From Streptosporangium sp. NBC_01755 (GTDB lineage Bacteria; Actinomycetota; Actinomycetes; Streptosporangiales; Streptosporangiaceae), in contig NZ_CP109131.1 of assembly GCF_035917995.1 (NCBI RefSeq), forward strand, positions 434,001 through 498,000: a stretch of 64,000 nucleotides of DNA, read 5' to 3'. The number at the start of each line of letters is the position of its first letter. Within the stretch, counting starts at the first letter, position 1. Both the position numbers and the translations under genes were made by a program. Positions 8,548 through 58,175 of the stretch are shown here, piece by piece. Below the pieces are notes generated by a model. It searched no databases and was not told the origin of the DNA. It worked only from the letters and a program-made list of their open reading frames with translations.

Positions 8548-8552
8548 AAAGG

Positions 8553-40557: not shown

Positions 40558-41805
40558 GTGAGGGAAGGACCGGAGCGGGCAACCCGGATCCACAACACCA
40601 GGGACTTCAGGTTGGCGTGGGCCGGGTCGACGCTTTCCATGACCGCGTTCCGGACCCTTGGCGTTTCCTATCCGCTGATAGCCCTGATGCTCACCGGCTC
40701 TCCCATGGCCGCCGGATGGGTGGGGTTCGCCTCGACCGTCCCCGGCCTCCTGCTGTACATCCCGGCAGGCGTCCTGATCGACCGCCTCACCCCGCGCCGG
40801 GTCATGCTCTGGACGGAGGCGATCCGGGGGATCGCCGCGGCCGGCGTGTTCGTGGCCCTGCTGTGCGGTTCGGCCTCGCTGGCCCATTTGGTGGTGGCCG
40901 CGGTCATCGAAGGAGCCCTGTGGGTCCTGCACTCACTGGCGGAGACCGCGCTGATCCCCTCGCTCGTCAGCCGCGACCGGCTTCCCCGCGCGCTCGCGCG
41001 AAGCGAGATGAGCTTCCACACCGCCGTCCTGGCGGGAAGACCTCTCGGCGGCTTCCTGCTGGGGATCGGGCAGGCGGTACCGTCCGCCGTCAACACGGTG
41101 CTTTTCTTTCTCTCGTTCGGTTTTCTGCTGCGCATGAACACGAACGGCGTCCGGCAGAAAGCACGTCCACGCCCGCTGGTCAAGGTCGGCGACGGCCTGC
41201 GGGAAGTCGCGCGGCAGCCTTTTCTTCGCACCGCGATGGGGCTGACCGCCTTCACCAATCTGATGGTCAACGCGCTGACCATGGTTTTCCTCTCGGGCTC
41301 GGCGGAGCTGTCGCCGCTGGTCGTCGGCCTGGTGCTCGCGGGGGGCGGGGCGGGCGGGGCCCTGGGATCCTTTGTGGTCCTGCGCCTCACACCGCCGCCC
41401 TGCATGCTGTTCCTGCAGGTGTGGATCTGGGCGGCCGCCTTCTCCATCGCCGCCGTCGGCCACCATCCCGTCTTCTTCGCCCTGGCGACACTGGTGACCG
41501 GATGCACCGGCGCTCTCAGCAACATCACGGTCAGGACGTTCGAGGCCCACGAGATCGGACCGGACAGGATAGCCAGGGTGGCAAGCGTGTCCCGGCTCAC
41601 CAGCCGCGCGGCGATATCGGTGGCGGCACCGCTCGGCGCCTTTCTCGTCACCTGCTTCGGCAACGAGGGGGCGACGACGGTCCTTTTCCTCACCATGATC
41701 GTGGTTGCGGTGCTGGTGACAGCCGTCCCCTCGCTGCGTGGTGCCCTGATCGGGCCGAGAGGTGCCGCCCCGGCACAGGGACCCCCGATCAGGGTGGCTG
41801 GATGA
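40558..41805 (+). CDS. MFS transporter
   Basis: The 415-residue protein from GTG 40558 has about 11-12 hydrophobic segments and the MFS loop-2-like motif PAGVLIDRLTPRRVMLW. It resembles the enterobactin/multidrug exporter branch (EntS/MefA-like). It borders the FxSxx-COOH locus and converges on its nSTAND1 gene with a 17-bp overlap of the 3' ends. Whether it exports the mature peptide is an open inference. Confidence 0.88.
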   Translation: MREGPERATRIHNTRDFRLAWAGSTLSMTAFRTLGVSYPLIALMLTGSPMAAGWVGFASTVPGLLLYIPAGVLIDRLTPRRVMLWTEAIRGIAAAGVFVALLCGSASLAHLVVAAVIEGALWVLHSLAETALIPSLVSRDRLPRALARSEMSFHTAVLAGRPLGGFLLGIGQAVPSAVNTVLFFLSFGFLLRMNTNGVRQKARPRPLVKVGDGLREVARQPFLRTAMGLTAFTNLMVNALTMVFLSGSAELSPLVVGLVLAGGGAGGALGSFVVLRLTPPPCMLFLQVWIWAAAFSIAAVGHHPVFFALATLVTGCTGALSNITVRTFEAHEIGPDRIARVASVSRLTSRAAISVAAPLGAFLVTCFGNEGATTVLFLTMIVVAVLVTAVPSLRGALIGPRGAAPAQGPPIRVAG

Positions 41806-43810
41806 GCCGGTCGGCCTCGGCGGCCAGGTGAGCGGGGAGTGCGGGTGCCCTCGCCGATCTGGCCCGGCGGGCCAGATCGGCCGCCGATTCGGCGTCATGC
41901 GCCAGAGCCCTGACCCGAGCGGCGTACAGCAGCGCCGGACCGTGATCTCCCGCCTCCGGTAGCACCGCTCTGACAGCCCGCTCCGCCTCGGAAAGGTTCC
42001 CCAGGAGAGCCAGTGCGAGCGCGTGGGCGGCCCGGGTGGAGGGCCACTGCAGCGGCCTGACCCGGTCGAGGTCGCGCAGCGCCGCCTCCGCCCGGCCGAG
42101 CCCGGCGAGGATCTCGCCCCGCGCCCGCAACGCCTCGGTGAGGTTCCCCTCCCTTCCCAGAACGTCGTTGAGGACGTCACGCGCCGCGTCGGGATGGCCG
42201 TCGTACCAGAGCGCCCAGGCGAGCTCGGTCTGGATGCTCATGTCATTGGGGACACGGCGTATCGCCGAGTACAGCTCCCGCACCGCGACCGAGGGACGTC
42301 CCTGGGCCAGCCGCAGCCGGCCGATCCCGGCGAGAAGGCCGCCGACGGCCGAGGTCGCCCCCAGCGTCTCGAAGAGGACCGCGGCGGTGCGGTAGTGCGA
42401 CACGGCCTTCTCGAAGTCCTCCCGCCGGTGCGCCACGTTGCCGAGAAAGGACTCGATCTCCGCGCGGATCCTGGTGTTGTCACCGCACCGCTCCAGAGCC
42501 TCCTCGGCCTGTTTGGCGGCCAGCGCGAACTCACCGTCGCGGAACGAGAGCTCGGCGGCCCGCAGGTGGTCTTCGGGAAAGGTCCGGCTCTCGGCCTGCA
42601 CGACGAGGTGGTCGTTCTGCAGGATCGGCTGGATGAGGCGTTCGTGCGACAGCTCGCACCAGCGGGTGCCCGCCTTGATGTCCTCGCGCAGGATGTGGCG
42701 GTCCACCAGCGCCCTGACCAACGCGTTCGGCATGCCCGCGGTGACGGTCTCCCCCTGGTAGACGACCTCGCGGGTGCCGAGTTCGGTGATGAAGCAGCGA
42801 CGCAGCCAGCTCCTGAGCTCGGCGACGTCGTCTCCGAAGTGGTCATGGGCCACCTCGGAGATCATCCGCTCGGAGAAGTCGGTGAGGGAACGGTCGGCGT
42901 TGGCGAACCTGCGGACGTGGTCCGAGGAGATGATCCGCACGTCCTCGGGCAGGGAGCGCCACATGGCCGAGCACACGACCTGCAGCTGGACGGGCTCGAC
43001 CACCTTGGCGTCGGCGACGACCTCCTCACCCAGCGCCCTGCCGACCCTGATCATGCGGAGGTCGTCCACCAGGCCACGCGCCGCGCCCGGGGCGAACGAG
43101 CGTCCCGTTCCCTCCAGCGGGCCCTCGGTCGCCCGGACCGCGGCGGCCGTGTCAAGAGCGGTCAGGGAGAAGCGGCTCCTGGCCATGCCCGCCAGCTTCG
43201 GCTCGTGGGGCAGGATCGCGGCGAGGTAGTCCTCTCGGATCGAGACGAGAAGACGCAGGTTCGGGTCGCCGTCCAGCGCCTCGACGAGCTGGCTGATGAA
43301 CCATTCCCGGTACGGCTGGCGGTGGGCGAAGTCCCCGAAGAGTTCCTCGGCCTGGTCGATCGCGGCCAGGGTGAGGATCGGGTCGCCGTAGGGATCCTGG
43401 CGCGGTGGGCGCCGGCTCAGGAACTCACGGATCGTCAGCCCCGCCAGCCGGGTGGGCGTCTCGGAAGGGGACCACGACGACAGCAGCGCGAACACGTGCG
43501 GGTTGTGCCGGGACAGCGCGGCGGAGGGGAAGGGCGAGCCGTGCGACACCCTGCCTATCGGGAGGACGTCGGTCCTGCCCGCGTCCAGCAGCGGGAGCAC
43601 ACCCGCCTGGATCAGCGAGGTCTTACCCACGCCCGACGGCCCGTACAGCACGGTCAGGCGTCCGGCCTGCCACAGGTCGGAGACCTCGCAGGCCTCCCTG
43701 TCCCGGCCGAAGAACTTGGCTCGGTCCTCGCGGCGGAAGGCCCGCAGGCCGACGTACGGCTGGCCGGCCGCGTCTGGCCGGACAAGGTCGGAGGTCACGT
43801 CAGAGGTCAC
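41789..43810 (-). CDS. nSTAND1-type ATPase with C-terminal TPR region (left arm)
   Basis: The 673-residue protein starts with GTG 43810, overlapping the SIR2 stop by four bases. The N-terminus YVGLRAFRREDRAKFFGRDR is the hallmark of the nSTAND1 family. Walker A is GPSGVGKTS (residues 57-65), followed by a Walker B with LAAIDQAEELF. A winged-helix-like region with REDYLAAILPHEPKL and AVRATEGPLEGTGRSFA follows, and a TPR-type helical C-terminus from about residue 420. STAND ATPases act as ligand-triggered switches in immunity and signalling. Here it is translationally coupled to a SIR2-like protein, which suggests sensor and effector. Confidence 0.88.
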   Translation of the reverse strand: MTSDVTSDLVRPDAAGQPYVGLRAFRREDRAKFFGRDREACEVSDLWQAGRLTVLYGPSGVGKTSLIQAGVLPLLDAGRTDVLPIGRVSHGSPFPSAALSRHNPHVFALLSSWSPSETPTRLAGLTIREFLSRRPPRQDPYGDPILTLAAIDQAEELFGDFAHRQPYREWFISQLVEALDGDPNLRLLVSIREDYLAAILPHEPKLAGMARSRFSLTALDTAAAVRATEGPLEGTGRSFAPGAARGLVDDLRMIRVGRALGEEVVADAKVVEPVQLQVVCSAMWRSLPEDVRIISSDHVRRFANADRSLTDFSERMISEVAHDHFGDDVAELRSWLRRCFITELGTREVVYQGETVTAGMPNALVRALVDRHILREDIKAGTRWCELSHERLIQPILQNDHLVVQAESRTFPEDHLRAAELSFRDGEFALAAKQAEEALERCGDNTRIRAEIESFLGNVAHRREDFEKAVSHYRTAAVLFETLGATSAVGGLLAGIGRLRLAQGRPSVAVRELYSAIRRVPNDMSIQTELAWALWYDGHPDAARDVLNDVLGREGNLTEALRARGEILAGLGRAEAALRDLDRVRPLQWPSTRAAHALALALLGNLSEAERAVRAVLPEAGDHGPALLYAARVRALAHDAESAADLARRARSARAPALPAHLAAEADRLIQPP

Positions 43811-44697
43811 GGCACCGGTCCCATCCGCCGGCGCAGCTCACGGCAGAACTCCTCCGCCGTCCCCCAGAAGATGGAGATCCGCCAGTCTTCGTAGTATCTG
43901 GCCAGCTGGCGCTGGACTTCCAGCACGTCCGCCTTCGTGCTGGCGATCGAGGGGGCGAGCTGGACGCTCACGTGCCTGCGGCGGTTGATGCCGGGAACGG
44001 CTTTCAACAACCCATGGAAAAGCACGCGAAATGTCCAGTCCTGCAAGCTGTATCCGATGAACAGCAGAGGTCTCCTGGTCAGCGCCGCGAGAATGGAGGT
44101 GGGCAGCATCCGCTGGCCGCCCGCGACACCGTCCACCGCGAGGTTGGTGAGAAACTCCAGATAGTCGTCCTCCGCCAGCACTATCGACGCCGGATCCTGC
44201 AGGTTGCCGTGCAGGTGATAGATGAGCGGGGCCTCGGGCTTGGGATTCCACCCTGCCTCGCTGCTGAACAGCTCCTCGGCGTAGGCCAGCCCTTTGTTCC
44301 ATGGACAGACGGCCACATTCGGTCTTTTTCCCACGGCTTCGAGCGAGCGCAGGATGAAGTCGTCGTAGTTCGTCGTCAGATATACCGGAAGCGGGAAGCT
44401 CGCGAGCAGGCCGTGCGGTTCGAGGGGATCCAGGAAGTCGGGCGCGCCCCCGGCGTCGAGCTCGTCGCAGATCCGCCTCTTCACATATACGGAATCCCCA
44501 TATCGCATCACCGCGAACTGCGTCACACGAGGAAGATCATGGTCGTCGTCGAACGGATAGTCCCATCGGCGCGCCATGTCGCGGCTCAACGCGGTCCCGG
44601 TCGGCAGAGTGCCCGCACACGCCCCGGATCCCAGGAACGGCGTGCAGTCTCCGCTGTTCAACTGGTCGAGCAGGCGCTCCCACTCGGCCTCCCCCAT
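43807..44697 (-). CDS. SIR2-like protein (left arm)
   Basis: ATG 44697 gives 296 residues; longer frames upstream overlap the precursor gene and are unlikely. Alignment to the right-arm copy supports this start (M..(E/V)(E/D)W(E/K)RL(L/I)DQL). SIR2_2-type motifs are PFLGSGACAG (residues 20-29), TTNYDDF (108-114) and HLHG (161-164), then FIGYSLQDWTFRVLFHGLL. These correspond to NAD-binding loops and the conserved Asn, Asp and His. Related SIR2 domains in defence systems hydrolyse NAD+. It lies between the FxSxx-COOH precursor gene and the coupled nSTAND1 gene. Confidence 0.86.
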   Translation of the reverse strand: MGEAEWERLLDQLNSGDCTPFLGSGACAGTLPTGTALSRDMARRWDYPFDDDHDLPRVTQFAVMRYGDSVYVKRRICDELDAGGAPDFLDPLEPHGLLASFPLPVYLTTNYDDFILRSLEAVGKRPNVAVCPWNKGLAYAEELFSSEAGWNPKPEAPLIYHLHGNLQDPASIVLAEDDYLEFLTNLAVDGVAGGQRMLPTSILAALTRRPLLFIGYSLQDWTFRVLFHGLLKAVPGINRRRHVSVQLAPSIASTKADVLEVQRQLARYYEDWRISIFWGTAEEFCRELRRRMGPVP

Positions 44698-44892
44698 GTC
44701 GTGCACGCGGGGCACCACCTCACAGACCGAAGGCCCGGCCGGACGTCGGACCCGATGCCGGACGACTCTATTGCCGCGGTCAACCCCCGGCGGTCCGGAT
44801 GTGGGCGTCTGACTCGCCGATCGCCAGGAAACGGGCTGATGCTTCACGGTTATCTTTCTGTCGCAGTCTGCCCGGAACCGCAAGGCGATCGC

Positions 44893-45057
44893 TCATATCG
44901 AGCTGTCGAACCCCGCACTCGGCTCTAGATCCGCACCATGCCCGAGAAGTTCTTCCAGCACCCTTCTGAGAGAGGCACTCCCGACCTTTTCAAGATCCCT
45001 GAACGACAGACCGGTGATGTCGATGGAGACCGTTGACGCCGCACCGTCATGATGCAT
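44893..45057 (-). CDS. fxsA: FxSxx-COOH precursor peptide, left arm (54 residues)
   Basis: This short gene was found by reading the minus strand: ATG at 45057, GGGAG 6 bases upstream, TGA at 44893-44895. The product contains VSIDITGLSFRDLEKV, LRRVLEELL and ends SAGFDSSI, so the last five residues are F-D-S-S-I, an exact FxSxx-COOH ending. The right-arm peptide aligns throughout (IDVTGLS..DL, L+R.L..IL, AGFTSSI). The family's FxsB enzymes join the Phe ring to the Ser beta-carbon, giving a three-residue cyclophane. It heads the SIR2-nSTAND1 operon, divergent from fxsT. Confidence 0.88.
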   Translation of the reverse strand: MHHDGAASTVSIDITGLSFRDLEKVGSASLRRVLEELLGHGADLEPSAGFDSSI

Positions 45058-45249
45058 TTATGCTCCCTGCTTCGCGACCCTATCGCCAGCCTGGTTTCGG
45101 CCATCCAAAACACGGTGCGACGGCCTTCTCCGCTGCGCATGAAATTCAAGATGCGCCCGCCATTTATTTTATTCTGTTATGCCCGGCTCCTCGAATCAAG
45201 CTCTAAGATGGCGACAGAATCCTTCGGCTTGACAGGGTGGAGGCCATAG
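45058..45249. promoter_or_regulatory. Divergent promoter region fxsA/fxsT, left arm
   Basis: This 192-bp gap is AT-richer than the genes on both sides (TTTATTTTATTCTGTTATGC near 45162-45181) and must hold promoters in both directions. No boxes were assigned firmly. Confidence 0.45.
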
Positions 45250-47781
45250 GTGGTGGAGCTTTCACACGCCGCGAACACGGTGCCGGAACGGCAGCCCGAG
45301 GTCTGGGAGAAAGTGCCGCCTCGCAACAGGAACTTCACCGGGCGAGACGACCTGCTCCTCAAGCTCCGCCAGGGCATCAGCACCGTCACCGCCGTCGTCC
45401 CCCAACCCCAGGCGCTCCAGGGATGGGGCGGCGTCGGCAAGACCCACCTGGCCATCGAGTACGCCCACCGCTACCGCTCGCACTACGACCTGGTCTGGTG
45501 GATCCCCGCCGACCAGCGTGTGCTGGTGCCCTCAGCGCTGGCGGCGCTCGCGCCCTACCTGGGCCTGCCACCGGTGTCGGCCACCGGTGTCGAGGAGGCC
45601 GCCGAGGCCGTGCGCAGGACGTTGCAGAGCGGCGACCCCTACCGCCGCTGGCTGCTGATCTTCGACAACGCCGAGGACCCCGGGCAGGTCGAGGAGTTCA
45701 TCCCCCGCGGTCCCGGCCACGTCCTGATCACCTCCCGCAACCCCAAGTGGGAGGACCACTTCGAGACCCTCCAGGTCGACGTCTTCACCCGCGAGGAGAG
45801 CGTGGCGTTTTTGAAGAAGCGCCTGCGCAGGGAGGTTCCCGACGAGGACTCCTCACGGCTGGCCGAGCAACTCGGAGACCTTCCCCTGGCCCTTGAGCAG
45901 GCCGGCGCGCTGCAGTACGAGACCGGGATGTCGGTCGACGAATACCTGGAACAGCTCAGCGAGCAGGCAAGCCGTCTGCTGGGCGCGAACCGGGCACCGG
46001 GGTACCCGCTGTCGATGACGGCCGCCTGGAAGGTGTCGGTGTCGCTCCTGCAGGACCGCCTCCCCGAGGCCATCACGGTCCTGCGGTGCTGCGCCTTCTT
46101 CGGCCCCGAGCCCATCCCGCGCGATGTGTTCCGCAGGGGCAACAGGGCGGACGTCCCCCGCCTGAACGCGATCCTGTCCGACCCCATCCTGCTCGCCACG
46201 GCACTGAGCGAGCTCAGGCGCTTCGCCCTGGCCAGGATCGAGCCCAAGACCCGCACGATCCAGGTCCACCGCCTGGTCCAGGCGCTCCTCCGTGACGACC
46301 TGCCGGAGAAGGACCAGCACGAGATCCGGCACGAGGTCCACGTGCTGCTGGCCGGCAGCGCCCCGAACGATCCCGATGACACCGACAAATGGCGTAGTTT
46401 CGAGGAGTTGGTCGCCCACGTCGCCCCCTCCGGCCTGGAAGAATGCACGGACCCCCAGGCCAGGCTGTTCGCCATGGACATGGTGCGCTACCTGTATCGA
46501 TCGGGCAACTACCAGTCCGCTCACTCGTTCATCAACGGCTTCATCGGGAGATGGACCGAGATAAGCGGGCCGAAACACCAGGACGTGCTCGTCGCGCACA
46601 AGCACCTCGGCAACATCCTGCGAGGTCTCGGACAGTACGCCCTGGCCTACGACGTCGACCACGAGACCCTCGACAGGATGACGGAGACTCTCGGTCCCGA
46701 TCACCCGGAGACCCTCTCGACGATCAACGGGTACGCCGCCTCGCTTCGCGCCCGCGGCGACTTCCTCGGCGCGCGCAGGCTGGACGAGGAGTCGCGGACC
46801 ACGCATATCAACGGGCCGGGTCCGACCGCACCGTCCACCCTGCGCGTTCTGTACAACCTGGCCCTCGACTACGCGCTGACCAGCGACTACGCACAGGCGC
46901 GGAGGCTGCACCAGGAGACCTACCTGGAGCAGAGCGACGCGACGGAGGGGGTCAGCAAGGGCACCCTGCTGCTGTCCTGGAACAGCCTGGCCAGGGCCGT
47001 TCGCCTCTGCGGTGACTACACCGAGGCCTGCGACCTGGGTGACGAGGCCTACGCCTACGGCGTCCAGGAGTTGACCCTCGACCACCACTACACCCTGCTG
47101 GCCGCCAAGGACCTCTCCATCGCCAAACGGCGGGCGGGAGAGATCCCCGAGGCCCTGGAGCTCGCGCACGACACGCACACCCGCTTCCAGCGGCTTTTCG
47201 GAGACGGCCATCCCGACACCATGGCGGCCGCGATCAACCTCTCCAACGCCCTGCGGACAGCCGGGGAGATCGACGAGGCGTTCGCGATCGCGGACAGGAC
47301 GGTTGCCCGCTATCCCAGGGTGTACGGCGCCGACCACCCCTACACCAACGCGTGCCTCGGCAACCTGGCGATCCTCCACCGGCTGCGAGGAGACGTCTCA
47401 ACGGCCCGCGACCTGAACGAGAAGGTCAGGAAGAGCCTGATCGCCAAGGTCAGCCAGAACCATCACTACCCGCTGACCTGTGCCATCAGCCTCCAGACGG
47501 ACCTCGCGGCCTCCGGAGAGACCAGCCGCGCCCGTGAGCTCGGCGAGGACACGCTCGCCAAACTGCGCGGCCTCTTCGGCGAGAACCACTTCCTGAGCCT
47601 GGCCTGCGCCAGCAACCTCGTCCTCGACCGACGGGCGACGGGCGCGGAGCAAGAGGCCGAACTCCTGTACGCCGACACGATGCGGCGCTACGAACGCCCG
47701 CTGGAGATCGGTCACCCCGACGCCCTGTTCGCGAGCGAGGGTCGTCGCATCGACTGTGACTTCGACCCTCCGCCGATCTGA
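45250..47781 (+). CDS. fxsT: FxSxx-COOH system NB-ARC/tetratricopeptide repeat protein (left arm)
   Basis: The GTG at 45250 lies 6 bases after GGTGGAGG and gives 843 residues. After the entry motif VPPRNRNFTGRDDLLLKLR comes an NB-ARC/STAND ATPase (GWGGVGKTH at 58-66, RWLLIFDNAEDPGQVEEFIP, GHVLITSRNPKW) with LPLALEQAGA, a winged helix, and long TPR arrays (ALAYDVDHETLDRMTETLGP... style, about 40-residue periods) to the end DFDPPPI. The right-arm copy shares the whole layout and the DFDPP ending. These proteins accompany FxSxx-COOH precursors; a switch or scaffold role is inferred. Confidence 0.92.
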   Translation: MVELSHAANTVPERQPEVWEKVPPRNRNFTGRDDLLLKLRQGISTVTAVVPQPQALQGWGGVGKTHLAIEYAHRYRSHYDLVWWIPADQRVLVPSALAALAPYLGLPPVSATGVEEAAEAVRRTLQSGDPYRRWLLIFDNAEDPGQVEEFIPRGPGHVLITSRNPKWEDHFETLQVDVFTREESVAFLKKRLRREVPDEDSSRLAEQLGDLPLALEQAGALQYETGMSVDEYLEQLSEQASRLLGANRAPGYPLSMTAAWKVSVSLLQDRLPEAITVLRCCAFFGPEPIPRDVFRRGNRADVPRLNAILSDPILLATALSELRRFALARIEPKTRTIQVHRLVQALLRDDLPEKDQHEIRHEVHVLLAGSAPNDPDDTDKWRSFEELVAHVAPSGLEECTDPQARLFAMDMVRYLYRSGNYQSAHSFINGFIGRWTEISGPKHQDVLVAHKHLGNILRGLGQYALAYDVDHETLDRMTETLGPDHPETLSTINGYAASLRARGDFLGARRLDEESRTTHINGPGPTAPSTLRVLYNLALDYALTSDYAQARRLHQETYLEQSDATEGVSKGTLLLSWNSLARAVRLCGDYTEACDLGDEAYAYGVQELTLDHHYTLLAAKDLSIAKRRAGEIPEALELAHDTHTRFQRLFGDGHPDTMAAAINLSNALRTAGEIDEAFAIADRTVARYPRVYGADHPYTNACLGNLAILHRLRGDVSTARDLNEKVRKSLIAKVSQNHHYPLTCAISLQTDLAASGETSRARELGEDTLAKLRGLFGENHFLSLACASNLVLDRRATGAEQEAELLYADTMRRYERPLEIGHPDALFASEGRRIDCDFDPPPI

Positions 47782-47787
47782 CCGCTT

Positions 47788-49098
47788 CTAGATCCGGGAG
47801 TTGCGGCGGGTCCAGGCTCTGAGATGCTGGTCGGCCTCGCGTCGGGCCTGCGCCGCGACCGCGAGGTCCACCGGCTCGTCCAGCCACCGTTCCAGCGTGC
47901 CTCTCATCGCCTTCACGAATTCCTCACCGCGGTCGTTCAGGCCCCCGCAGGCCAGGAGGGTGCCGGTGACGCGGTGGGCGGCCTCCCTCCAGCGCGTGAA
48001 CTCGACCTGTCCGCGAAAGGCGCGAGCCCCCTGCTCGAAACGGTGCTGGCGCCTCCAGAATCCCGCCACCCCGAGATATGCGTACGCTCCCTGTAACAAC
48101 CCGTTGACCGGACGGGGGTCGTTCCTCCAGGGCGCGTAGTGCCGCCGTCCGTTCTCCGGCCGGGTCAGATCGACCATGCCGGTCAGCGCCGTCAGCTTCG
48201 CGTGCTGGATCTCGTGGGCGAACGTCGCGGCCATTCCCAGGCCGTGCTGCGGCTCGGACAGGGCGACGGTCCCGAACGTCTCACGGGAGGTGGCACTGTT
48301 CTGGCCGAAAGCCGGCGCGTGGATGGGGGTCAGCACCGAGACACCGCAGGTCATCTCTTCGGCGACGGTCCAGTGACGGGCGGTCAGTACACGCCATGCC
48401 TCGCGCAGGCACCGGGCCCAGTGATCCAGCTTCGCGTCGCTCAGCCTCGGCTCGGTGACGTGACCCGCGGGCCACCGGTACGGGTCCGCGTCGTCGACGA
48501 CGAGGCTGAACCCGGAGCCCACCGGCAGCCGGCGCAGGACCTGCCAGCCGGTGTCGTCACGGAGCGGGTCGACGCGTACCGTTGACCGGCCGATGTCGAG
48601 CTCGGCCCCCTCACCGTCCGGTCGCACGGTGACGTCGAACACTCCCCGGGCACCGGCCGGTGCGCTGAGACGGCCGAGGCCGGGCAGCACGATGGCGTCG
48701 TCGGAGAGCGCGAGGCGGACCTGGCAGGCGGTCTGCGATCTGACGGCGACCGCCACGACCAGGGCGGCCAGCCTGCCGGGGTCGTCCTTCACTCCCGTAC
48801 CGGCCTTGAGCGAAAGGTACGTTCGCAACGCCCATGCGCCCACGGCCGGGTAGCACAATTCCGATTCGACCCGGCCCCTGCCGTGCGTCTCCATCTCGAC
48901 CATGAGGTCGTAGGCGCGAGCCGAGAGGTCGGCGTGGGGGTGCCCCGCCGTCCGCGCCTCCAGGACAAGCTCACGGATGAGGAGCCTGTTCTTGAAACAC
49001 TGCATCGCGCGCAGCTCGGCCATGGCACCGGCCCCGCCCCCACCCGCCGCGAGCCTGGAGAACGTCTCTTCGGACACCGGACGCGAGATGAGCCTCAT
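47788..49098 (-). CDS. HExxH-motif peptide-modification enzyme (putative 2-oxoglutarate-type beta-hydroxylase), left arm
   Basis: The 436-residue protein overlaps the fxsB stop by four bases (ATGA), so it is translationally coupled to it. It has HEIQH (295-299), followed by HAKLTAL and the conserved block YAPWRNDPRPVNGLLQGAYA. This is the HExxH family (TIGR04267) found with FxSxx-COOH and other RiPP precursors; current annotation practice calls it an alpha-ketoglutarate-dependent peptide beta-hydroxylase, not a protease. The gene converges on fxsT with a 6-bp gap. Confidence 0.88.
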   Translation of the reverse strand: MRLISRPVSEETFSRLAAGGGGAGAMAELRAMQCFKNRLLIRELVLEARTAGHPHADLSARAYDLMVEMETHGRGRVESELCYPAVGAWALRTYLSLKAGTGVKDDPGRLAALVVAVAVRSQTACQVRLALSDDAIVLPGLGRLSAPAGARGVFDVTVRPDGEGAELDIGRSTVRVDPLRDDTGWQVLRRLPVGSGFSLVVDDADPYRWPAGHVTEPRLSDAKLDHWARCLREAWRVLTARHWTVAEEMTCGVSVLTPIHAPAFGQNSATSRETFGTVALSEPQHGLGMAATFAHEIQHAKLTALTGMVDLTRPENGRRHYAPWRNDPRPVNGLLQGAYAYLGVAGFWRRQHRFEQGARAFRGQVEFTRWREAAHRVTGTLLACGGLNDRGEEFVKAMRGTLERWLDEPVDLAVAAQARREADQHLRAWTRRNSRI

Positions 49099-50342: not shown

Positions 50343-50541
50343 GCCTCTCTTGCGCCATTTCCATCTCGCACTACTTTGTGCCGTTAGTCAAGATTAAAAC
50401 TTGTAAAACTTGATTCAGCCACGCGTCAGAGTCGTACAGCGGGATGACTCCTTCCGCCGCGGCGACACCCATCTTCCACCTACCCTGAAGTCAGCTTTCG
50501 GGCATCACATATAACGCCGTGTCGGGGGAGGCTGATCAACA
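50343..50541. promoter_or_regulatory. Centre of the mirror-image locus, divergent promoter region
   Basis: This AT-rich gap of about 200 bp lies between fxsB and its remnant. It contains the direct repeat AAAACTTG at 50396-50403 and 50405-50412, a possible activator site for the fxsB-HExxH operon. It is the centre of the symmetric gene order. Confidence 0.45.
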
Positions 50542-50910
50542 GTGCGCGATTGGCCGCCGAACCCGGGTACCGGCAAGCCGCCCGCCCTCGACCGGAGACC
50601 GACGCCTTTTTACCGGTTTATTCGGAAGATCCGTAGTAGACGCAACCCTGCATGCAAATATTGCTATATGTACGAAATGGCAGGCTCTGGCTGGCATAGC
50701 CGCCCGCAGTACGTGCCGCAGGAGACCTTCGCCGCCGCGGCCGGGAGAATCCCCGAACACGTTCACCCGCGCCGACTCGACGGCATCGAGTCGGCGCGGC
50801 ACGGCGGCGAACCGCTCCATGAGATCGTCCCGCGGGTCCGGCCGCGGGTCGACTCCGCCACGCACCTCCCAACGTGCCTACCTGTTTCTCCTCACCGGGC
50901 ATATCGATAA
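50542..50910 (+). pseudogene. Remnant of a second fxsB (right arm), radical SAM cysteine lost
   Basis: The frame aligns to FxsB from about residue 29: FYRFIRKIRSRRNPACKYCY against FRQFILKIHSRCDLACRHCY, then YMYEMAGSGWHSRPQYVPQE and ARHGGEPLHEI. The first Cys of CxxxCxxC is Arg, so a [4Fe-4S] cluster cannot be held in the normal way. The sequence ends about 20 residues after HGGEP, so the rest of the barrel and the whole SPASM domain are gone. It lies 5' of the right-arm HExxH gene exactly where the mirror order predicts fxsB. Confidence 0.85.
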
Positions 50911-50965
50911 CACAGTCGGAGCCGATCCGGCCTTCCGATCGAAGAACGGGAATTGAGGGGGAACG

Positions 50966-52273
50966 ATGAACCTACGCGAGCATCGGATTCCGGCAAAGGT
51001 GTTCTCGGAGCTGGCCCACGGCGGCGGCGGTGCCCCCGCGGTCGGCCGTCTGGCCGCCGCCCAGCACAGCAAGCACGTGCTTCTCGTACGCGGAGTGATG
51101 GAGACGGCTCGCACGGTCGATCATCCGGAAGCGGCGACCACCCGCCGCGCCTACGACCTGCTCGCCACCGTCCAGCGCCGTCACCCCGACGCCGTCGACA
51201 CCGTGCTCCGCCATTCGGCGGTGGGTGCCTGGGCGCGGCGGACGATCAGGATGCTCCACGCGGGCGACGCCGCCGCGGCGCCAGGACAGCTCGCGGCGCT
51301 GGCCGCCGCAGCGGCGATCCGTTCCCGCACGGCCTGCGACGTCGACGTGCCCGCGCTGGACGGGGTGGTCACCCTGCCGTCGCTGGGTCAGGCGATCCTG
51401 TCACCGACCGTCTCCTGGGCCACCGTCGAGTGCGCCGCGGACGGTGCCGAGGTCACGGCGGACCGGACCGTCGTCCGAGTTCCCCGTGATCCCCGCCGGG
51501 ACGCGCCGGGCTGGAAGGGCCTGCGCTCGCTGTACACCGAGGTGGACGGCATGTCGCTTCGCCTGATCATCGACGATCTCGACCCCTACCGGATGCCGGA
51601 GACGGCCAATATCGGCGAGCGGCTCACCGAGACCGAGACCGAGCGCTGGCAGTCGACACTGCACGCGGCCTGGGACCTGCTGGTGCGCCACCACCGGATC
51701 GTGGCCGAGGAGGTGGCCACGGCGATCACGGTCCTCACACCACTGGTCGCACCCCCCGGAGGCCAGTCGAGTTCGACCTCTCGGGAGACCTTCGGCTGCG
51801 TGGCCCTGTCGACGCCGCCGGACGCGGCGGCGCTCGCGGTCACCCTGGCGCACGAGACGCAGCACGCGAAACTCTCCGCCCTGCTCGACCTCGTCCCGCT
51901 GACGCTCCCCGACGACGGCTCCCGCTACTACGCCCCCTGGCGCGATGATCCCCGTCCCGTGCCCGGGCTGCTCCAGGGGGCGTACGCGTTCCTCGGTGTG
52001 TCCGGCTTCTGGATGCGCCAGCGCGACCTGGAATCGGGGGAGGCGGCGCTGCGCGCGAGTGCGGAGTTCTTCCAGTGGCGCGAGGCCGCCCGCCTGGTCA
52101 CCGCCACCCTCCTCGGCAGCGGGCGGCTGACCCGAGCCGGTGAGAGCTTCACCACCGGAATGGCGCGGCGCCTGGACGACTGGTCGCGGGAGAGCGTGCC
52201 CGCCCGCGCGCGGGCCCTGAGCCGTGCACGCGCGGACGACCACCACGCGCGCTGGCTCGAACGTAACGGTTAG
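50966..52273 (+). CDS. HExxH-motif peptide-modification enzyme, right arm
   Basis: ATG 50966 follows GAGGGGGAACG and gives 435 residues. The core is HETQH (296-300) with HAKLSALLDLVPLTL and YAPWRDDPRPVPGLLQGAYA, colinear with the left-arm enzyme. It has stayed intact although its partner fxsB has decayed. The 3' end overlaps that of the convergent fxsT by four bases. The role is as in the left copy: probable hydroxylation of the precursor (family inference). Confidence 0.87.
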   Translation: MNLREHRIPAKVFSELAHGGGGAPAVGRLAAAQHSKHVLLVRGVMETARTVDHPEAATTRRAYDLLATVQRRHPDAVDTVLRHSAVGAWARRTIRMLHAGDAAAAPGQLAALAAAAAIRSRTACDVDVPALDGVVTLPSLGQAILSPTVSWATVECAADGAEVTADRTVVRVPRDPRRDAPGWKGLRSLYTEVDGMSLRLIIDDLDPYRMPETANIGERLTETETERWQSTLHAAWDLLVRHHRIVAEEVATAITVLTPLVAPPGGQSSSTSRETFGCVALSTPPDAAALAVTLAHETQHAKLSALLDLVPLTLPDDGSRYYAPWRDDPRPVPGLLQGAYAFLGVSGFWMRQRDLESGEAALRASAEFFQWREAARLVTATLLGSGRLTRAGESFTTGMARRLDDWSRESVPARARALSRARADDHHARWLERNG

Positions 52274-54807
52274 AGCGCGGGCGGATCGAAGTCGAAGTCG
52301 AGCCGCTCACCCCTCAGGGCCACCTTCGTATCAGGATGATCATTACCCAGCACCCGCTGGTAGCGCTCGAAGGTGTCGGCTTCCAGCGTGCCGGCCTCCT
52401 CGGTGTCACCTTCCGCCCGCATGTCCACGACCAGGTTGTTCGCGCAGGCCAGGGTGAGCGGGTGGTCCACCCCCAAAAGCTCCCGCAGCTGGGTCAGAGT
52501 CTCCTGGCCCAGCTGCCTGGCCGCCGGAGTGTCTCCCATGGCGGCGAAGTCGCTGGCGAGGTTGATCGCACAGGTCAGCGAGTAGTGATGCCCACGGCCG
52601 AGCGTACGATCGAGGCCCTCCAGGGATCTCCGGTCGAGCCGGCTCGCCTCTTCGATCTCTCCGTTGACCCGCAGGAGCAGCGCCAGGTTCATGTCGCAGC
52701 CGAACGTGAACGGATGCTCGTCCCCGTACCTTTCCGGGTAGCGTGCCGCGGTATCGCGCAGCAACTCCAGCGCCTCGGTGATCTCTCCTCTGGTGCGCTG
52801 CGCGTTGGCCAGGCACAGAGCCGCGGCGAGCGTGTCGTGGTGGTCACGGCCGAAGATGCGGTTCTCCCGCTCGTACGTCCGCTCGGCGATCTCGAACGCC
52901 TCGTCGATGAGTCCCGCCCTGCGCTTGGCGATGGACAGATCCTTCGCCACGCGCAGGGTCCATGGATGGTCGGGCCCCAGCTCCTGCACGCCGAACTCGT
53001 ACGCGTCCTCGCCGAGGTCGCAGGCCTCGGAGTAGTCGCCTCTGAGCCGGACGATTCTGGCGAGGCCGTTTCTCGCCGCCAGCAGGACCAGTGAGCTCGA
53101 CGTCGAGTCCGAGGAGCGTTGCTTCGTGTAAAGCACCTTTTGCAGCTCGAAGGCCTGCGGATAGTCACCGAGCAGCATGTAGTCCACGGAGAGATTGTTC
53201 ATGGCGCGCAGCGTCCGGCGGTGATCGGGGCCGAACACCGCCTGGTGCCGGCCGAACGACTCCTTGTCGTGCTCCAGCGCGTCCGCGAAGTCGCCCCGCA
53301 TCCTCATGTCGGCACCGTGGCTGTTGACAAGCAGGAGGGTCTCCTCGTGTTCGGGCCCGAGGGTCACCTGCATGCGTGCCAGGGTGTCGCGATTGAGCTC
53401 GAAGGAAGCCCGATAGTCGCCGAGCTCGCGCAGGACGATGCCGAGATGTCGCCGCGCGGAGAGCACATTCTGGTCATCTTCGCCGCTGTCGGCCCGCCAC
53501 CTCCTGATGAAGCTCTCCACGAGCTCGACAGCCGACTGGTAACCACCCGACGAGTAGAGATAGCGAACGACGTCGAGGGCGAAGCCACGGACGCGGGGAT
53601 CCCCGCTCTCCTCCACCAGCGCGGGCCTCATGTGGCCGAGCAACTCCGCGTAGCGTGGCCAGGAGCCGTTGTCGTCGGGCAGGCCCGGCGTCGCCGCCAC
53701 CAGCAGGAGATGAACCTCCCTGCGGAAGGACACGTGCTCCTCGTCGCGCAGCTCGTCGCGCAGGAGCGCCTGGACCAGGCGATGCACCTGGATGGTCCGG
53801 TTCTCCGAGTCGATCCGCACCAGGGCGTAACGCCCCAGCTCCCTGATGGCCTTGCTCAGCAGGATCGGGTCGGCGAGGAGCGGGCCGAGACGCGATCCCT
53901 GCGCGAACTCCTCGGGAAGCACTCCGAAGACATCACGGGGTATCGGATCGGGGCCGAAGAAGGCGCAGCAACGCAGGACCTCCACGGCCTCGGGCAACTT
54001 CGCCTTGAGCTGTGACACCGACAGTGACCACGCCGCCGTCATGGAGAGCGGGTAGTCCGACGCCTTGTTGGCGTCGAGCAGCTGGACCGTCTGCTCGTCG
54101 AGCAGACGGAGGTACTGCCCGACGGACATCCCCGTCTCCGTCTGCAGGGCTCCCGCCTGTTCCAACGCGAGCGGGAGATCACCGAGTTGCTCGGCCAGCA
54201 GGTTCCTGTCGTCGAGACTGGTCGACCTCGGCACGCGCTTGCTGAGGAAGTCGATGCTCTCAGCCCTGCTGAAGACGTCGACCGGGACGGTGTCGACCAC
54301 GCTCTGCCAGGCGTGGCTGCGCGAAGTGATCAGGACGTGCCCCGGACCGCGCGGGATGATGTCGTTGACGTCCTCCGGTTGCTCGGCGTTGTCGAAGACG
54401 AGCAGCCACCTGGAGTAGGGTTCGCCTCGGCGCAGGGCGTCCAGCACGGCCCTGGACGCCTCCTCCACTCCCATGGTGACGGAGGAGGACACGCCAAGGT
54501 GCGGAGCGAGCGCGGCCAGTGAGGAGCGCACCAGAATCGGCTGGTCCGCGGGAATCCACCAGACCAGGTCGTACTCGTGGCGGAAGCGATAGGCGTACTC
54601 GATCGCGACATGGGTCTTGCCGACACCGCCGAACCCGTGAAGGGCATGGGGCACCACCGCGGTGACCTCAGCCGTGACCCCGGTGTGCAGCTTGTCGAGC
54701 AGATCTTCACGACCGGTGAAGTTCTTGTTCCGCTGTGGGACCTTGCCCCAGATTTTGGGCTGGCGCCCCGTGGCCCGGGAAATTCCCGATGGCTCTGAAA
54801 TGGACAT
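52270..54807 (-). CDS. fxsT: FxSxx-COOH system NB-ARC/tetratricopeptide repeat protein, right arm
   Basis: ATG 54807 lies 7 bases after GGAGG and begins MSISEPSGIS; the longer frame to 55122 runs over the divergent precursor gene and is rejected. The 845-residue protein has VPQRNKNFTGREDLLDKLHT, P-loop GFGGVGKTH (58-66), LLVFDNAEQPEDVNDIIPRG, GHVLITSRS and a TPR array ending DFDPPAL. The lysine of the P-loop is at residue 64 in both copies. Divergence between the copies is substantial, so the duplication is old. Confidence 0.92.
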   Translation of the reverse strand: MSISEPSGISRATGRQPKIWGKVPQRNKNFTGREDLLDKLHTGVTAEVTAVVPHALHGFGGVGKTHVAIEYAYRFRHEYDLVWWIPADQPILVRSSLAALAPHLGVSSSVTMGVEEASRAVLDALRRGEPYSRWLLVFDNAEQPEDVNDIIPRGPGHVLITSRSHAWQSVVDTVPVDVFSRAESIDFLSKRVPRSTSLDDRNLLAEQLGDLPLALEQAGALQTETGMSVGQYLRLLDEQTVQLLDANKASDYPLSMTAAWSLSVSQLKAKLPEAVEVLRCCAFFGPDPIPRDVFGVLPEEFAQGSRLGPLLADPILLSKAIRELGRYALVRIDSENRTIQVHRLVQALLRDELRDEEHVSFRREVHLLLVAATPGLPDDNGSWPRYAELLGHMRPALVEESGDPRVRGFALDVVRYLYSSGGYQSAVELVESFIRRWRADSGEDDQNVLSARRHLGIVLRELGDYRASFELNRDTLARMQVTLGPEHEETLLLVNSHGADMRMRGDFADALEHDKESFGRHQAVFGPDHRRTLRAMNNLSVDYMLLGDYPQAFELQKVLYTKQRSSDSTSSSLVLLAARNGLARIVRLRGDYSEACDLGEDAYEFGVQELGPDHPWTLRVAKDLSIAKRRAGLIDEAFEIAERTYERENRIFGRDHHDTLAAALCLANAQRTRGEITEALELLRDTAARYPERYGDEHPFTFGCDMNLALLLRVNGEIEEASRLDRRSLEGLDRTLGRGHHYSLTCAINLASDFAAMGDTPAARQLGQETLTQLRELLGVDHPLTLACANNLVVDMRAEGDTEEAGTLEADTFERYQRVLGNDHPDTKVALRGERLDFDFDPPAL

Positions 54808-55060
54808 GCGACCGCCTCCGCTCGCCCGATTCTCGTCCAGCTTAGACTCCCGGCGGACCGAGCGCATGTACGCTGAGGCCAGAGTCTCATGGCGACATAC
54901 CAAAGAGAGGATAAGACGTGAATGTTTTCCTTCTTTATGATGCCAGGATAACCGGATACCCTGGGTTGGAAGCGCTCGGTGAGCGTGGAAAGATAATGGT
55001 GTAAGTGGTGCACGCGGCGTGAGTGGCTCGCGTGAACCGGCCACGGCCAGGGGAGTCCGC
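54808..55060. promoter_or_regulatory. Divergent promoter region fxsT/fxsA, right arm
   Basis: This 253-bp gap is AT-richer than the flanking genes (notably 54895-54965) and matches the position of the left-arm divergent region. It should contain the fxsT and fxsA-SIR2-nSTAND1 promoters. Confidence 0.45.
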
Positions 55061-55240
55061 ATGGGCGAGGAAGTCATCACGGGAGAGATCGATTCCATCG
55101 AGAGCGTTCTCATCGACGTCACCGGACTGAGTTTGACCGACCTTGATCATATAGATGATTCCCACCTTAAGCGTGCATTAAGGCGGATACTTGACAACGA
55201 CGACACCGGACCGGCCGCCGGATTCACATCGTCCATATGA
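55061..55240 (+). CDS. fxsA: FxSxx-COOH precursor peptide, right arm (59 residues)
   Basis: ATG 55061 follows AGGGGAG at 7 bases; an upstream GTG at 55019 has no clear ribosome-binding site. The peptide contains VLIDVTGLSLTDLDHIDD, HLKRALRRILD and ends GPAAGFTSSI, so its last five residues F-T-S-S-I match FxSxx-COOH. The alignment with the left-arm precursor covers the leader helix and the end. Expected processing is a Phe-Ser crosslink by FxsB, possibly plus hydroxylation by the HExxH enzyme. It is followed 77 bp later by the SIR2 gene. Confidence 0.88.
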   Translation: MGEEVITGEIDSIESVLIDVTGLSLTDLDHIDDSHLKRALRRILDNDDTGPAAGFTSSI

Positions 55241-55317
55241 AAGATCTTGACTTCTGTGCAGCCATGACGGGAAATAGAGTCCTATAAGGGACTGTTTCCC
55301 AATGATCAGGGTGGCCC

Positions 55318-56193
55318 ATGGATGATGTCGACTGGAAACGGTTGATAGACCAGCTCGGCAGGGGCGACTGCGCCCCTTTTCTCGGAGCGGGAGCCTGCGC
55401 CGGCACGCTTCCCACCGGCACCACCCTGAGCAACCAGTACGCCATGCGCTATGACTATCCGTTCGCCGACCCCGGCAACCTGGCCCGTGTGATGCAGTAC
55501 GGCGAGGCCGTGGTGCGAGATCCGGTGGACCTCAAGGAGACGGTCTGCAGCCACCTCCGGTCACACGGGCGTCCTCCCGCGAGCGATCCCTGGGAGCCGC
55601 ACCGGCTGCTGGCCGGCTTCCCCGTGACGACGTTCCTCACCACGAACTACGACGACTTCCTGGTCGAGGCGCTGCGGGCGGAGGGCAAGGAGCCCCACGT
55701 CGCCGTCTCCCCCTGGTGGAAAGCCGACTCCGCCACGCCCGTCCTGCCGGAGCCGACGGTGGAACGGCCCCTCGTCTACCATCTGCACGGAAGCTGGTCC
55801 GAACCGGCGTCGCTGGTGCTGACCGAGGCCGACTACCTGACCTACCTCGTCAACATGGTGGACGCGGTCGCGACCGACGGACGGCATCCGCTGCCGATCC
55901 CGATCCTTCAGGCGATGACCACCCGCCCGTTGCTCTTCGTGGGTTACAGCCTGCAGGACTGGACGTTCCGGGTGTTGTTCCACGGCCTGGTGCGCGGCAC
56001 GCCCCGCAGCAACAAGCGGCGGCACGTGAGCGTGCAGCTGATGCCCGAGATCAACGGATCGGCGAGCGACGCGGAGAGCAAGGCCAGACGCTACATCACC
56101 CACTATCTCGACGGCTGGAACATCTCGATCTTTCTGGGGACCGCCTCGGAGTTCTGCGCGGAGCTCCTGCGGAGAATGGGACGGGCACCATGA
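55318..56193 (+). CDS. SIR2-like protein, right arm
   Basis: The 291-residue protein has PFLGAGACAGTLPTG (20-34), FLTTNYDDFLVEAL with Asn110 and Asp112, HLHG (155-158) and FVGYSLQDWTFRVLFHGLV. It aligns along its whole length with the left-arm copy. The NAD-pocket residues are kept, so enzymatic NAD+ turnover is possible. Its stop overlaps the nSTAND1 start by four bases (ATGA), arguing for stoichiometric co-production. Confidence 0.87.
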   Translation: MDDVDWKRLIDQLGRGDCAPFLGAGACAGTLPTGTTLSNQYAMRYDYPFADPGNLARVMQYGEAVVRDPVDLKETVCSHLRSHGRPPASDPWEPHRLLAGFPVTTFLTTNYDDFLVEALRAEGKEPHVAVSPWWKADSATPVLPEPTVERPLVYHLHGSWSEPASLVLTEADYLTYLVNMVDAVATDGRHPLPIPILQAMTTRPLLFVGYSLQDWTFRVLFHGLVRGTPRSNKRRHVSVQLMPEINGSASDAESKARRYITHYLDGWNISIFLGTASEFCAELLRRMGRAP

Positions 56194-58175
56194 CAGGCGC
56201 GACTCACCAAAGCGACAGGGCCACCCACCCGTACGTGGGGCTACGCCCCTATGATCGCGGCGAGCACGCGCTGTTCTTCGGGCGGGAGCGCGAGGGCCGC
56301 GACATCGCCACCATCTGGCAGGCCACCGGTCTCACCGTGCTGTTCGGAGCCTCCGGAGTGGGCAAGACGTCCCTGCTGCACGCGGGTGTCCTGCCGCGCA
56401 TCGAACCCGAACGCGCCGACGTTCTGCCCGTGGCCCGGGTGTCGCCCCGCGGGATCGTCTCACTGCGCCCGAGGGTCACCGGCAACCCGTACGCGCTGGC
56501 GCTGCTGTCGGCCTGGGCGCCGGAGGAGCCACTGCCCGTGCTGGCCGGGCTGACGGTCTCGGACTTCCTGGCCGGGCGCCCGGAACGCGTCGACCGGTAC
56601 GGTGACCCGGTGCCCACCCTGGTCGCCGTCGACCAGGCGGAGGAGCTGTTCGGCGGTCCGCCCGACCGGGAGGAGGAGCGTCACGCGCTGCTGCGCCAGC
56701 TCGCGAGTGCCGTCGAGGAGCACGACGGGCTCCACCTGCTGCTCTCGCTGCGCGAGGAGTATCTGGCCTCCGTGCTGCCGTACGAGCGCCCGCTCGGCCG
56801 GGGCTCGCGGGCGCGGTTCCAGCTGCTGCCGCTGTCGCGCGCGGCGGCGCTCGACGCCACGACGAGACCCCTGGAGCGCACCGGCCGATCCTTCGCCCCC
56901 GGAGCCGCCGAACGACTCGTCGACGACCTGCGTACCGTCCCCTTCCTCAACGACGAGGGGCAGACGACCACGGTGACGCTGAACACCGTGGAGCCCGTCC
57001 AGCTGCAGGTCGTCTGCTCCGCGCTCTGGGACTCGCTGCCGCCGGGCCTGCGCGAGATCACCACCGAGCACGTGAACCTGCACGTGAACGTCGACCACTT
57101 CCTGACCGGTTTCTGCGAGCGGATGCTGGCGCAGGTCGCGGCCGAGTCGGGGGTCACGTCGAGCGAGATCCGCTCCTGGCTGCGCAGGACCTTCGTCACC
57201 GAGCACGGGACGCGCAACACCGTCTACGAGGGCCTCTGTGAGACGGCGGGCATGCCGAACGCCATCGCCGAGGCGCTGGAGGACCGTCACCTGCTGCGGG
57301 GCGAGCACCGGTTGGGGATCCGCTGGTACGAGTTGCAGCACGACCGCCTGATCGGCTCGGTGCGCCAGTCGCAGCACCCGGCGACCTACCTCGGCGACGC
57401 GCGGGCGGCACTGGCCAGGGGGAGCTGGGAGACGGCCCGCGGCCTCGCGGAGGAGGCGGTCCGCGCCTCGGGGCCCGGCGAGACGTGGGTGCGGGCCGAG
57501 GCCCTGGTCGTCCTGGGGGAGGTCGCGGCGGTGGGAGGCGAGGTGGAGGGTGCGCGGCGCCTCCTCGAGGAGGCGGCCGACGTGTTCGCGACGCTCCAGC
57601 GGTTCGACGGGGTGGCCTCGGCGCTGACCGCGGAAGGACGGCTCTGGCTGGCCCAGGGCCGGTACGACAGGGCGGTGGAGCAGTTGCGTGCCGCTCTCTC
57701 CTGGGTTCCCAACGACCTGCCCGCGCAACTGGCGCTCGGGGAGGCGCTGTGGCATCTGGGACAGCCGCGCGCCGCACTCGCCCTTCTCAACGGCGCCGTG
57801 GCGCTCGCGAGCGAACCCCCCGCCGAGGCGCTGGCGCTGCGCGGAGAGATCCTCGCCGATCTCGGAAGGCCCGGCGAGGCCCTGCGCGACCTGGATCGGG
57901 TGAGACGGCACCAGCGGCCCACCACGATCGCCGCCAGGGCGCTGGCCCTGGCCCTGGCTCAGCGGTTCGACGCCGCGGGACAGGAGATCCTCGACGCGAC
58001 CGCCGACGAGTCGGACAGCGGTCCGGTCCTGCTGCGGGCCGCACGCGTCCACGCCCTGCTGGGTCAGCGCGCGACCGCCGAGGAGTTCGCCTCGCGGGCG
58101 CTCGACGCGGTCACTCCCGGGCTTCCGCCGCATCTCCGGAAGCAGGCTGAGGAGTTTCTCCGGAAAACGGCGTGA
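56190..58175 (+). CDS. nSTAND1-type ATPase with C-terminal TPR region, right arm
   Basis: ATG 56190 gives 661 residues. The start YVGLRPYDRGEHALFFGRER, Walker A GASGVGKTS (53-61) and Walker B with VAVDQAEELF are of nSTAND1 type. REEYLASVLPYERPLGRGSR and AATRPLERTGRSFA-like text parallel the left-arm protein, and a TPR-like helical domain makes up the last 240 residues. The 3' end overlaps the convergent membrane-protein gene by 65 bp. Confidence 0.88.
   Translation: MTGATHQSDRATHPYVGLRPYDRGEHALFFGREREGRDIATIWQATGLTVLFGASGVGKTSLLHAGVLPRIEPERADVLPVARVSPRGIVSLRPRVTGNPYALALLSAWAPEEPLPVLAGLTVSDFLAGRPERVDRYGDPVPTLVAVDQAEELFGGPPDREEERHALLRQLASAVEEHDGLHLLLSLREEYLASVLPYERPLGRGSRARFQLLPLSRAAALDATTRPLERTGRSFAPGAAERLVDDLRTVPFLNDEGQTTTVTLNTVEPVQLQVVCSALWDSLPPGLREITTEHVNLHVNVDHFLTGFCERMLAQVAAESGVTSSEIRSWLRRTFVTEHGTRNTVYEGLCETAGMPNAIAEALEDRHLLRGEHRLGIRWYELQHDRLIGSVRQSQHPATYLGDARAALARGSWETARGLAEEAVRASGPGETWVRAEALVVLGEVAAVGGEVEGARRLLEEAADVFATLQRFDGVASALTAEGRLWLAQGRYDRAVEQLRAALSWVPNDLPAQLALGEALWHLGQPRAALALLNGAVALASEPPAEALALRGEILADLGRPGEALRDLDRVRRHQRPTTIAARALALALAQRFDAAGQEILDATADESDSGPVLLRAARVHALLGQRATAEEFASRALDAVTPGLPPHLRKQAEEFLRKTA

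Follow-up and report, generated by a model that had tools for sequence, protein, structure and literature searches.

A mirrored pair of diverged FxSxx-COOH cassettes with SIR2 and nSTAND1 genes in Streptosporangium and related genera

Results

The window analysed here, a 64,000-nucleotide stretch of the soil bacterium Streptosporangium sp. NBC_01755 (NZ_CP109131.1, positions 434001-498000 of the 8.15 Mb single-contig genome), holds two FxSxx-COOH cassettes in mirror image, which we call the left (L) and right (R) arms. Coordinates are those of the window. The left arm begins on the outside with nSTAND1_L, a nucleoside triphosphatase (NTPase) with C-terminal TPRs (41789..43810, minus strand; PF20703 E 7e-34), which falls in the L group of its tree. 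It continues inward with SIR2_L, a SIR2_2 NADase-type putative effector (43807..44697, minus; PF13289 E 4e-27; ThsA PADLOC model E 1e-18), the precursor gene fxsA_L, encoding 54 aa with the C-terminus AGFDSSI (44893..45057, minus), fxsT_L, an NB-ARC-like NTPase with TPRs (45250..47781, plus; NF040586 E 4e-302, 1005 bits), HExxH_L (47788..49098, minus; TIGR04267 E 9e-46, 156 bits) and fxsB_L, an intact radical S-adenosylmethionine (SAM)/SPASM maturase predicted to form cyclophanes (49095..50342, minus; TIGR04269 E 2e-140, 468 bits). The mirror centre (50343..50541) is intergenic and separates the starts of the two divergent fxsB genes. The right arm then runs outward through an fxsB_R remnant of 122 codons (50542..50910, plus; TIGR04269 60 bits, model positions 3-71 of 363), HExxH_R (50966..52273, plus; TIGR04267 E 3e-51, 174 bits), fxsT_R (52270..54807, minus; NF040586 1054 bits, with a start codon), fxsA_R, encoding 59 aa with the C-terminus AGFTSSI (55061..55240, plus), SIR2_R (55318..56193, plus) and nSTAND1_R (56190..58175, plus; PF20703 E 7e-33).

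All twelve elements were found in palindromic order at the positions given by the initial annotation, which had described an old duplication with both arms kept except for one fxsB. The SIR2/nSTAND1 overlap of 4 bp is identical in both arms, and fxsT and HExxH converge in each, with a 6 bp gap on the left and a 4 bp overlap on the right; both features had been noted from the start. Protein identity between the arms is 46-54% overall (blastp: nSTAND1 47%, E 3e-166; SIR2 54%, E 5e-108; HExxH 46%, E 3e-107; fxsT 54%), in line with the divergence claimed for them. At the DNA level, an inverted alignment of the arms covers 3.1 kb with 66% identity (E 0). This similarity is far above chance, and its absence had been named as grounds for abandoning the duplication. 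The right fxsB is a truncated remnant, and the other genes are present in both arms. An assembly artefact was ruled out, because the arms are only ~66% identical at the DNA level where aligned and the same order occurs in five other genomes.

The NCBIfam cut-offs used were 300 bits for NF040586, 40 for TIGR04267, 370 for TIGR04269 and 28 for TIGR04268. They are passed by fxsT and HExxH of both arms and by fxsB_L. Both precursors end in AGFxSSI; fxsA_R scores 42 bits against TIGR04268 and fxsA_L falls below the cut-off at 22 bits (21.6). An FxSxx-COOH system is thus recognised by its F-x-S-x-x precursor (over the TIGR04268 cut-off for R only), its FxsT TPR protein and, in the left arm and not in the right-arm remnant, its FxsB. 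The SIR2_2 and nSTAND1 domains were assigned by Pfam scan. A peptidase identity for the HExxH proteins was replaced by the alpha-ketoglutarate (aKG) HExxH peptide beta-hydroxylase family: they carry both the TIGR04267 domain and the HExxH motif, which is present in 108 of 108 rows (some rows are the same gene twice), and a profile of both arms finds the solved relatives 22nu (E 1e-63) and ChlH 8s5f. FxsB_L is homologous to ChlB 9gm3 (E 3e-74).

The best solved matches of a structural model of SIR2_R (pLDDT 83) are ThsA, DSR2, KomC and Avs5, ahead of classical sirtuins, and the protein fits best with the anti-phage NADase type by modelled fold and aligned catalytic motifs. Three SIR2 motifs occur together in 49 of 51 rows (again with some genes present twice); the exceptions are an L-type row with a deviating glycine motif and a distant row without two of the motifs. 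By pattern, Walker A was found in 101 of 107 fxsT rows and, with the pattern used, in 66 of 103 nSTAND1 rows. By family and fold, fxsT, nSTAND1 and SIR2 are conflict-type proteins. The maturase MscB is presumably a member of the FxsB family. MscB is reported to join C4 of Phe to Cbeta of Ser (PMC11002830). Each FxsA peptide is predicted to be chemically ring-closed.

HExxH searches over 341 family genomes (R-type cut-off E <= 1e-112) returned R-type matches in 76 genomes and L-type matches in 24. L and R lie head to head on one contig in five of the 341, namely our genome, G142, Streptosporangium amethystogenes (G200), Planobispora longispora (G044) and Planobispora rosea (G133); these pairs were picked by eye from both HExxH lists, and pairs may be missed since many genomes are fragmented. 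Planomonospora parontospora, from a named collection of which the best 80 loci were listed, is the sixth. The mirrored locus therefore occurs in at least six genomes of three genera, and the search for it in other actinomycetes, suggested at the outset, showed that the arrangement is not unique to this genome. The mirror centre measures 192-201 bp in five of the six loci, including ours, and 681 bp in P. longispora. Both subtypes also occur singly. Within 9 kb of 107 fxsT genes (deduplicated fetched loci) we counted HExxH in 107, fxsB in 105, nSTAND1 in 93 and SIR2 in 44; the set was selected by HExxH matches, which partly predetermines the HExxH count, and genes of an adjacent cassette may be included. 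On these counts the basic cassette is ordinary in these bacteria and SIR2 marks a subset of it; the mirrored pair is rare. Phage records, queried with fxsB_L only, gave 12 matches, all below 60% identity, as were 193 of the 194 matches to fxsT_R, the only query used on plasmid records.

Other paired arrangements were also found. Four genomes with two convergent HExxH genes ~14 kb apart (G098, G067, G066 and G120) all carry tail-to-tail FxSxx cassettes; scanning of two of them, G067 and G098, found a VMAP/EAD2 gene in each gap, joined in G067 by an AAA gene. In Planotetraspora kaengkrachanensis an R and an L-like cassette follow each other in direct tandem, and a match to the antisense frame of a major facilitator superfamily (MFS) gene lies between them. 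Two further stretches (G033 and G127) showed no mirrored pair. In Sphaerisporangium perillae, an L-like fxsB-HExxH-fxsT run leads into an R-type fxsT-nSTAND1, a composite that is perhaps a fusion by deletion.

For five genes across six loci, L copies are closest to L copies and R copies to R copies, with L-R identity of 44-66% within and between loci. Because L groups with L and R with R in every gene, the arms split before Streptosporangium, Planobispora and Planomonospora. L and R form separate groups in the SIR2 (51 rows), fxsT (104) and nSTAND1 (95) trees, with support of 94-100 by the Shimodaira-Hasegawa-like approximate likelihood ratio test, and each group includes single cassettes. Among the mirrored loci, the fxsT and nSTAND1 trees both place Streptosporangium apart from Planobispora and Planomonospora, for L as for R, and HExxH_R shows the same split in the HExxH tree, in which HExxH_L is unresolved. 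Joint inheritance of the pair would produce such matching splits. Other FxSxx cassettes lie between L and R in the fxsT trees (104 and 43 rows, built by a quick method), so the arms are not sisters there. An approximately unbiased (AU) test did not reject L and R as one clade (p 0.25), so that a very old local inverted duplication is possible, and the nSTAND1 tree is compatible either way. Of the duplication first proposed, the age has therefore held up, the split predating the genera; an origin at this place is not borne out by subtypes that occur alone or by fxsT trees without sisterhood, and the AU test leaves room for it. Non-sister arms, which had been named as a refutation, appear in the fxsT trees and are not established by that same test.

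Arms have also been lost. Planomonospora sp. ID82291 (G015) is 94% identical to P. parontospora on both sides of the locus, minus 8.4 kb. At its junction the 5' part of fxsB_R runs directly into the last codons of nSTAND1_R, with GCTGCG near both ends. The right arm was clearly deleted; with the fxsB_R stub joined to the end of nSTAND1_R as a deletion scar, the mirrored pair preceded this single cassette. Another Streptosporangium (G204) has an L cassette at the same chromosomal place, together with the phospholipase D (PLD)-like gene that follows nSTAND1_R in other Streptosporangium loci, and it has probably lost its right arm. Herbidospora cretacea has the same neighbours as G204, and arm loss is possible there. 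No deletion scars were found by tblastn at E 1e-3 beside the other L singles (G087, G095, G112, G077 and G162).

We compared DNA identity gene by gene, with values given for our genome against S. amethystogenes and then G142. The flanks stand at 94.0/89.8% on the left and 89.8/81.7% on the right. The left effectors are at 93.0/90.9% (nSTAND1_L) and 96.2/93.5% (SIR2_L), against 60.5/56.7% for fxsA_L, 85.3/85.7% for fxsT_L, 69.3/70.9% for HExxH_L and 80.4/80.0% for fxsB_L. In the left arm, the peptide block is thus more divergent than the effectors against both genomes. Our genome differs from both others over 44.5-51 kb, and the left block changed in our own lineage, because those two remain 85-94% alike there. 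Synonymous divergence (dS) is high in the left peptide block (0.37-0.75, versus 0.14-0.28 for SIR2_L and nSTAND1_L), a level better explained by import of a diverged allele than by selection alone. The donor could not be named: HExxH_L is unresolved within its group, and the nearest fxsB_L is from the same genus, with modest support. The highest ratio of nonsynonymous to synonymous change (dN/dS) is that of HExxH_L, 0.40-0.53. In the right arm, HExxH_R (84.5/86.1%), fxsT_R (83.7/84.7%) and fxsA_R (65.0/64.4%) contrast with nSTAND1_R (95.8/87.3%) against S. amethystogenes only, SIR2_R being intermediate (89.7/89.4%); against G142, fxsA_R alone stands out.

The FxsA tails of the six loci vary at the middle residue of the FxS core. 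They read FDSSI (L) and FTSSI (R) in our genome, FTSSI and FDSSI in S. amethystogenes, FTSSI and FDSFI plus a 4-residue extension, SKPL, in G142, FSSSF and FSSAL in P. longispora, FSSTL and FSATV (an FxA tail) in P. rosea, and FSASI plus an extension (also FxA) and FQSSI in P. parontospora. Most of fxsB_R is gone, and the first cysteine of its CxxxCxxC radical SAM motif has become Arg. The one other FxsB relative in our genome, 37% identical, lies 2.6 Mb away (genome positions 3079288-3081363) in one open frame with an HExxH match. Right-arm genes have dN/dS of 0.21-0.29 in comparisons that include our genome, and 0.21-0.32 between G142 and G200. In G155 and G206 the contig with the R cassette has no TIGR04269 match, and FxsB lies elsewhere in the genome. 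R-type cassettes that lack fxsB next to HExxH occur in Microbispora (L045 and L082), again with FxsB at another place in the genome. These cases suggest a supply of FxsB in trans. The right-arm genes of our genome show no decay, which is weak evidence for the same, the loss of its fxsB being undated.

An MFS transporter gene (40558..41805, plus; MFS_1 of Pfam, E 8.6e-22) is convergent with nSTAND1_L and recurs at the same position in many L-type loci, where it was seen via its antisense frame; it was not detected in P. longispora. An apparently conserved 342-aa minus-strand gene beside nSTAND1_L proved to be this antisense frame. At 61.8/61.7% DNA identity to S. amethystogenes and G142, the MFS gene is as divergent as the peptide genes and, like the left peptide block, it has changed. 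Scanning of genes next to the right arm turned up no MFS gene. There, a protein with two hydrophobic N-terminal helices and a PLD-like domain (58111..58926, minus) adjoins many R cassettes and two L singles (G204 and H. cretacea); it was not found beside the right arm in P. longispora, P. rosea or P. parontospora. Judged by eye, it has no HKD motif. Downstream of nSTAND1_R, P. parontospora has repeats with a 276-bp period (locus L073, 18348-20016). Elsewhere in the window, a DDE transposase and a large serine recombinase flank a 1565-aa Big_5/laminin-G/CBM96 protein (6730-8433, 8484-13181, 14950-17130).

Discussion

We tentatively favour, as a possibility rather than a conviction, reading the mirrored pair of anciently diverged cassettes as a two-channel, peptide-gated immune locus that depletes nicotinamide adenine dinucleotide (NAD). 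FxsA would receive a Phe-to-Ser cross-link in its F-x-S tail from FxsB, and the HExxH protein would hydroxylate the product. The modified tail would likely be a ligand or bound regulator of FxsT, a protein resembling nucleotide-binding leucine-rich repeat (NLR) receptors in its NB-ARC/TPR make-up. Infection or a foreign peptide might disturb FxsA-FxsT binding, upon which FxsT would release nSTAND1 or assemble it with the SIR2 NADase; the activated SIR2 would drain NAD+ and the cell would stop. The two arms would be two recognition channels for different peptides, sharing a central promoter region. In our genome FxsB_L likely serves FxsA_R too, since the right arm retains the low dN/dS given above in its other genes despite a dead fxsB_R.

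Several observations weigh against this proposal. The MFS neighbour would also fit peptide export. At the cut-off used, the pair was seen in just 5 of the 341 family genomes, so that pairing is dispensable. Of the five other loci, three have a non-canonical tail in one arm, which argues against two F-x-S cross-links being strictly required. Against G142 the right-arm contrast disappears, with nSTAND1_R no closer than HExxH_R. Most neighbours in the Pfam scan look metabolic, and the PADLOC run covered the cassette proteins only.

It is unlikely that a single inverted duplication at this place in an ancestor explains the locus, with both arms kept by history or redundancy and no paired function. 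The identical gene order and overlaps of the arms, an L+R clade compatible with the AU test and the disappearance of the right arm from G015, and probably from G204, speak for this reading. However, other cassettes part L from R in both fxsT trees, both subtypes occur alone, the recurrent neighbours differ (MFS by L, the PLD-like gene by R), and a second mirrored geometry, tail to tail, exists elsewhere.

We would give no better chance to a cluster for ribosomally synthesized and post-translationally modified peptides (RiPPs), exported as antibiotics or kin signals with SIR2, nSTAND1 and FxsT as regulation or immunity. The MFS gene beside the L cassette, 62% identical to that of S. amethystogenes like the peptide block and unlike the intervening SIR2_L-nSTAND1_L, and the variable middle residue of the FxS core agree with export. 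The right arm has no MFS gene among those scanned, however, the three other proteins are of conflict type, and FxSxx peptides have been tied to conflict ATPases (PMC7159879).

Rather doubtful, in our view, is a variant of the immune proposal in which two mirrored, separately evolving recognition modules (the peptide, two modifying enzymes and the NB-ARC/TPR receptor) are swapped as blocks between two conserved SIR2-nSTAND1 effectors, the cyclophane peptide being a self-ligand that restrains a suicide NADase. That two independent immune cassettes came to lie next to each other at a permissive site, each acting on its own, is improbable: each subtype does exist alone and P. kaengkrachanensis has its tandem, but the same head-to-head junction spans three genera, its centre is short in five of six loci, and L and R share the Streptosporangium versus Planobispora/Planomonospora split in fxsT and nSTAND1.

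Known FxSxx-COOH systems (TIGR04268, TIGR04269, TIGR04267, NF040586; PMC7159879) are built from the same parts, namely a precursor, a radical SAM maturase, an HExxH protein and the NB-ARC/TPR protein FxsT; what sets our locus apart is the mirrored placement of two diverged cassettes, both with a SIR2 and an nSTAND1 gene. SIR2 is not mentioned in the main text of that eLife 2020 paper (PMC7159879). The kind of system is already known, and its SIR2-nSTAND1 form in mirrored pairs is a variant for which we found no description in the open literature on FxSxx-COOH, triceptides, FxsB and nSTAND conflict systems. VMAP-ternary conflict systems have been described with an FxSxx peptide and AP-ATPase/TPR modules (PMC7159879). 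Tail-to-tail FxSxx cassettes enclose a VMAP gene in both of the genomes scanned; our locus has no VMAP, MoxR or vWA match among the cassette and flanking genes scanned, a part of the open reading frames of the window. With triceptide and radical SAM-aKG-HExxH systems (MscB; ChlB/ChlH) the locus shares the homology of FxsB_L to ChlB and of the HExxH proteins to ChlH and 22nu. It differs in that its genes adjoin SIR2 and nSTAND1, and the cyclophane product is only predicted.

With the anti-phage SIR2 NADases (ThsA, DSR2, KomC and Avs5) our proteins appear to share the SIR2 fold and aligned catalytic motifs, and with Avs5 the pairing of SIR2 with a STAND NTPase; here, a stand-alone 291-aa SIR2 lies beside a separate STAND-TPR gene and a RiPP pathway. 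Thoeris combines ThsA, a SIR2 protein with a ligand-binding SLOG domain, with the TIR protein ThsB. The 291-aa SIR2 has SIR2_2 only, and the nine cassette proteins gave no TIR or SLOG match. In Avs5-type SIR2-STAND systems both domains are in one protein, whereas SIR2 and nSTAND1 here are separate genes overlapping by 4 bp.

Conclusions

The locus is real, conserved and mechanistically suggestive, and its function is proposed here from sequence. We know of no established role for FxSxx cyclophane peptides. The locus connects them with a STAND ATPase and with a SIR2 that falls in the anti-phage NADase type. It also amounts to a natural experiment, in that one of the two paired arms has lost its maturase and a relative has had a whole arm deleted. 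A protein that would break down cellular NAD is likely under the control of each cassette, and defence is the probable purpose. If this is true, RiPP chemistry would be joined to NLR-type immunity in these bacteria, and the role of the peptide would be directly testable.

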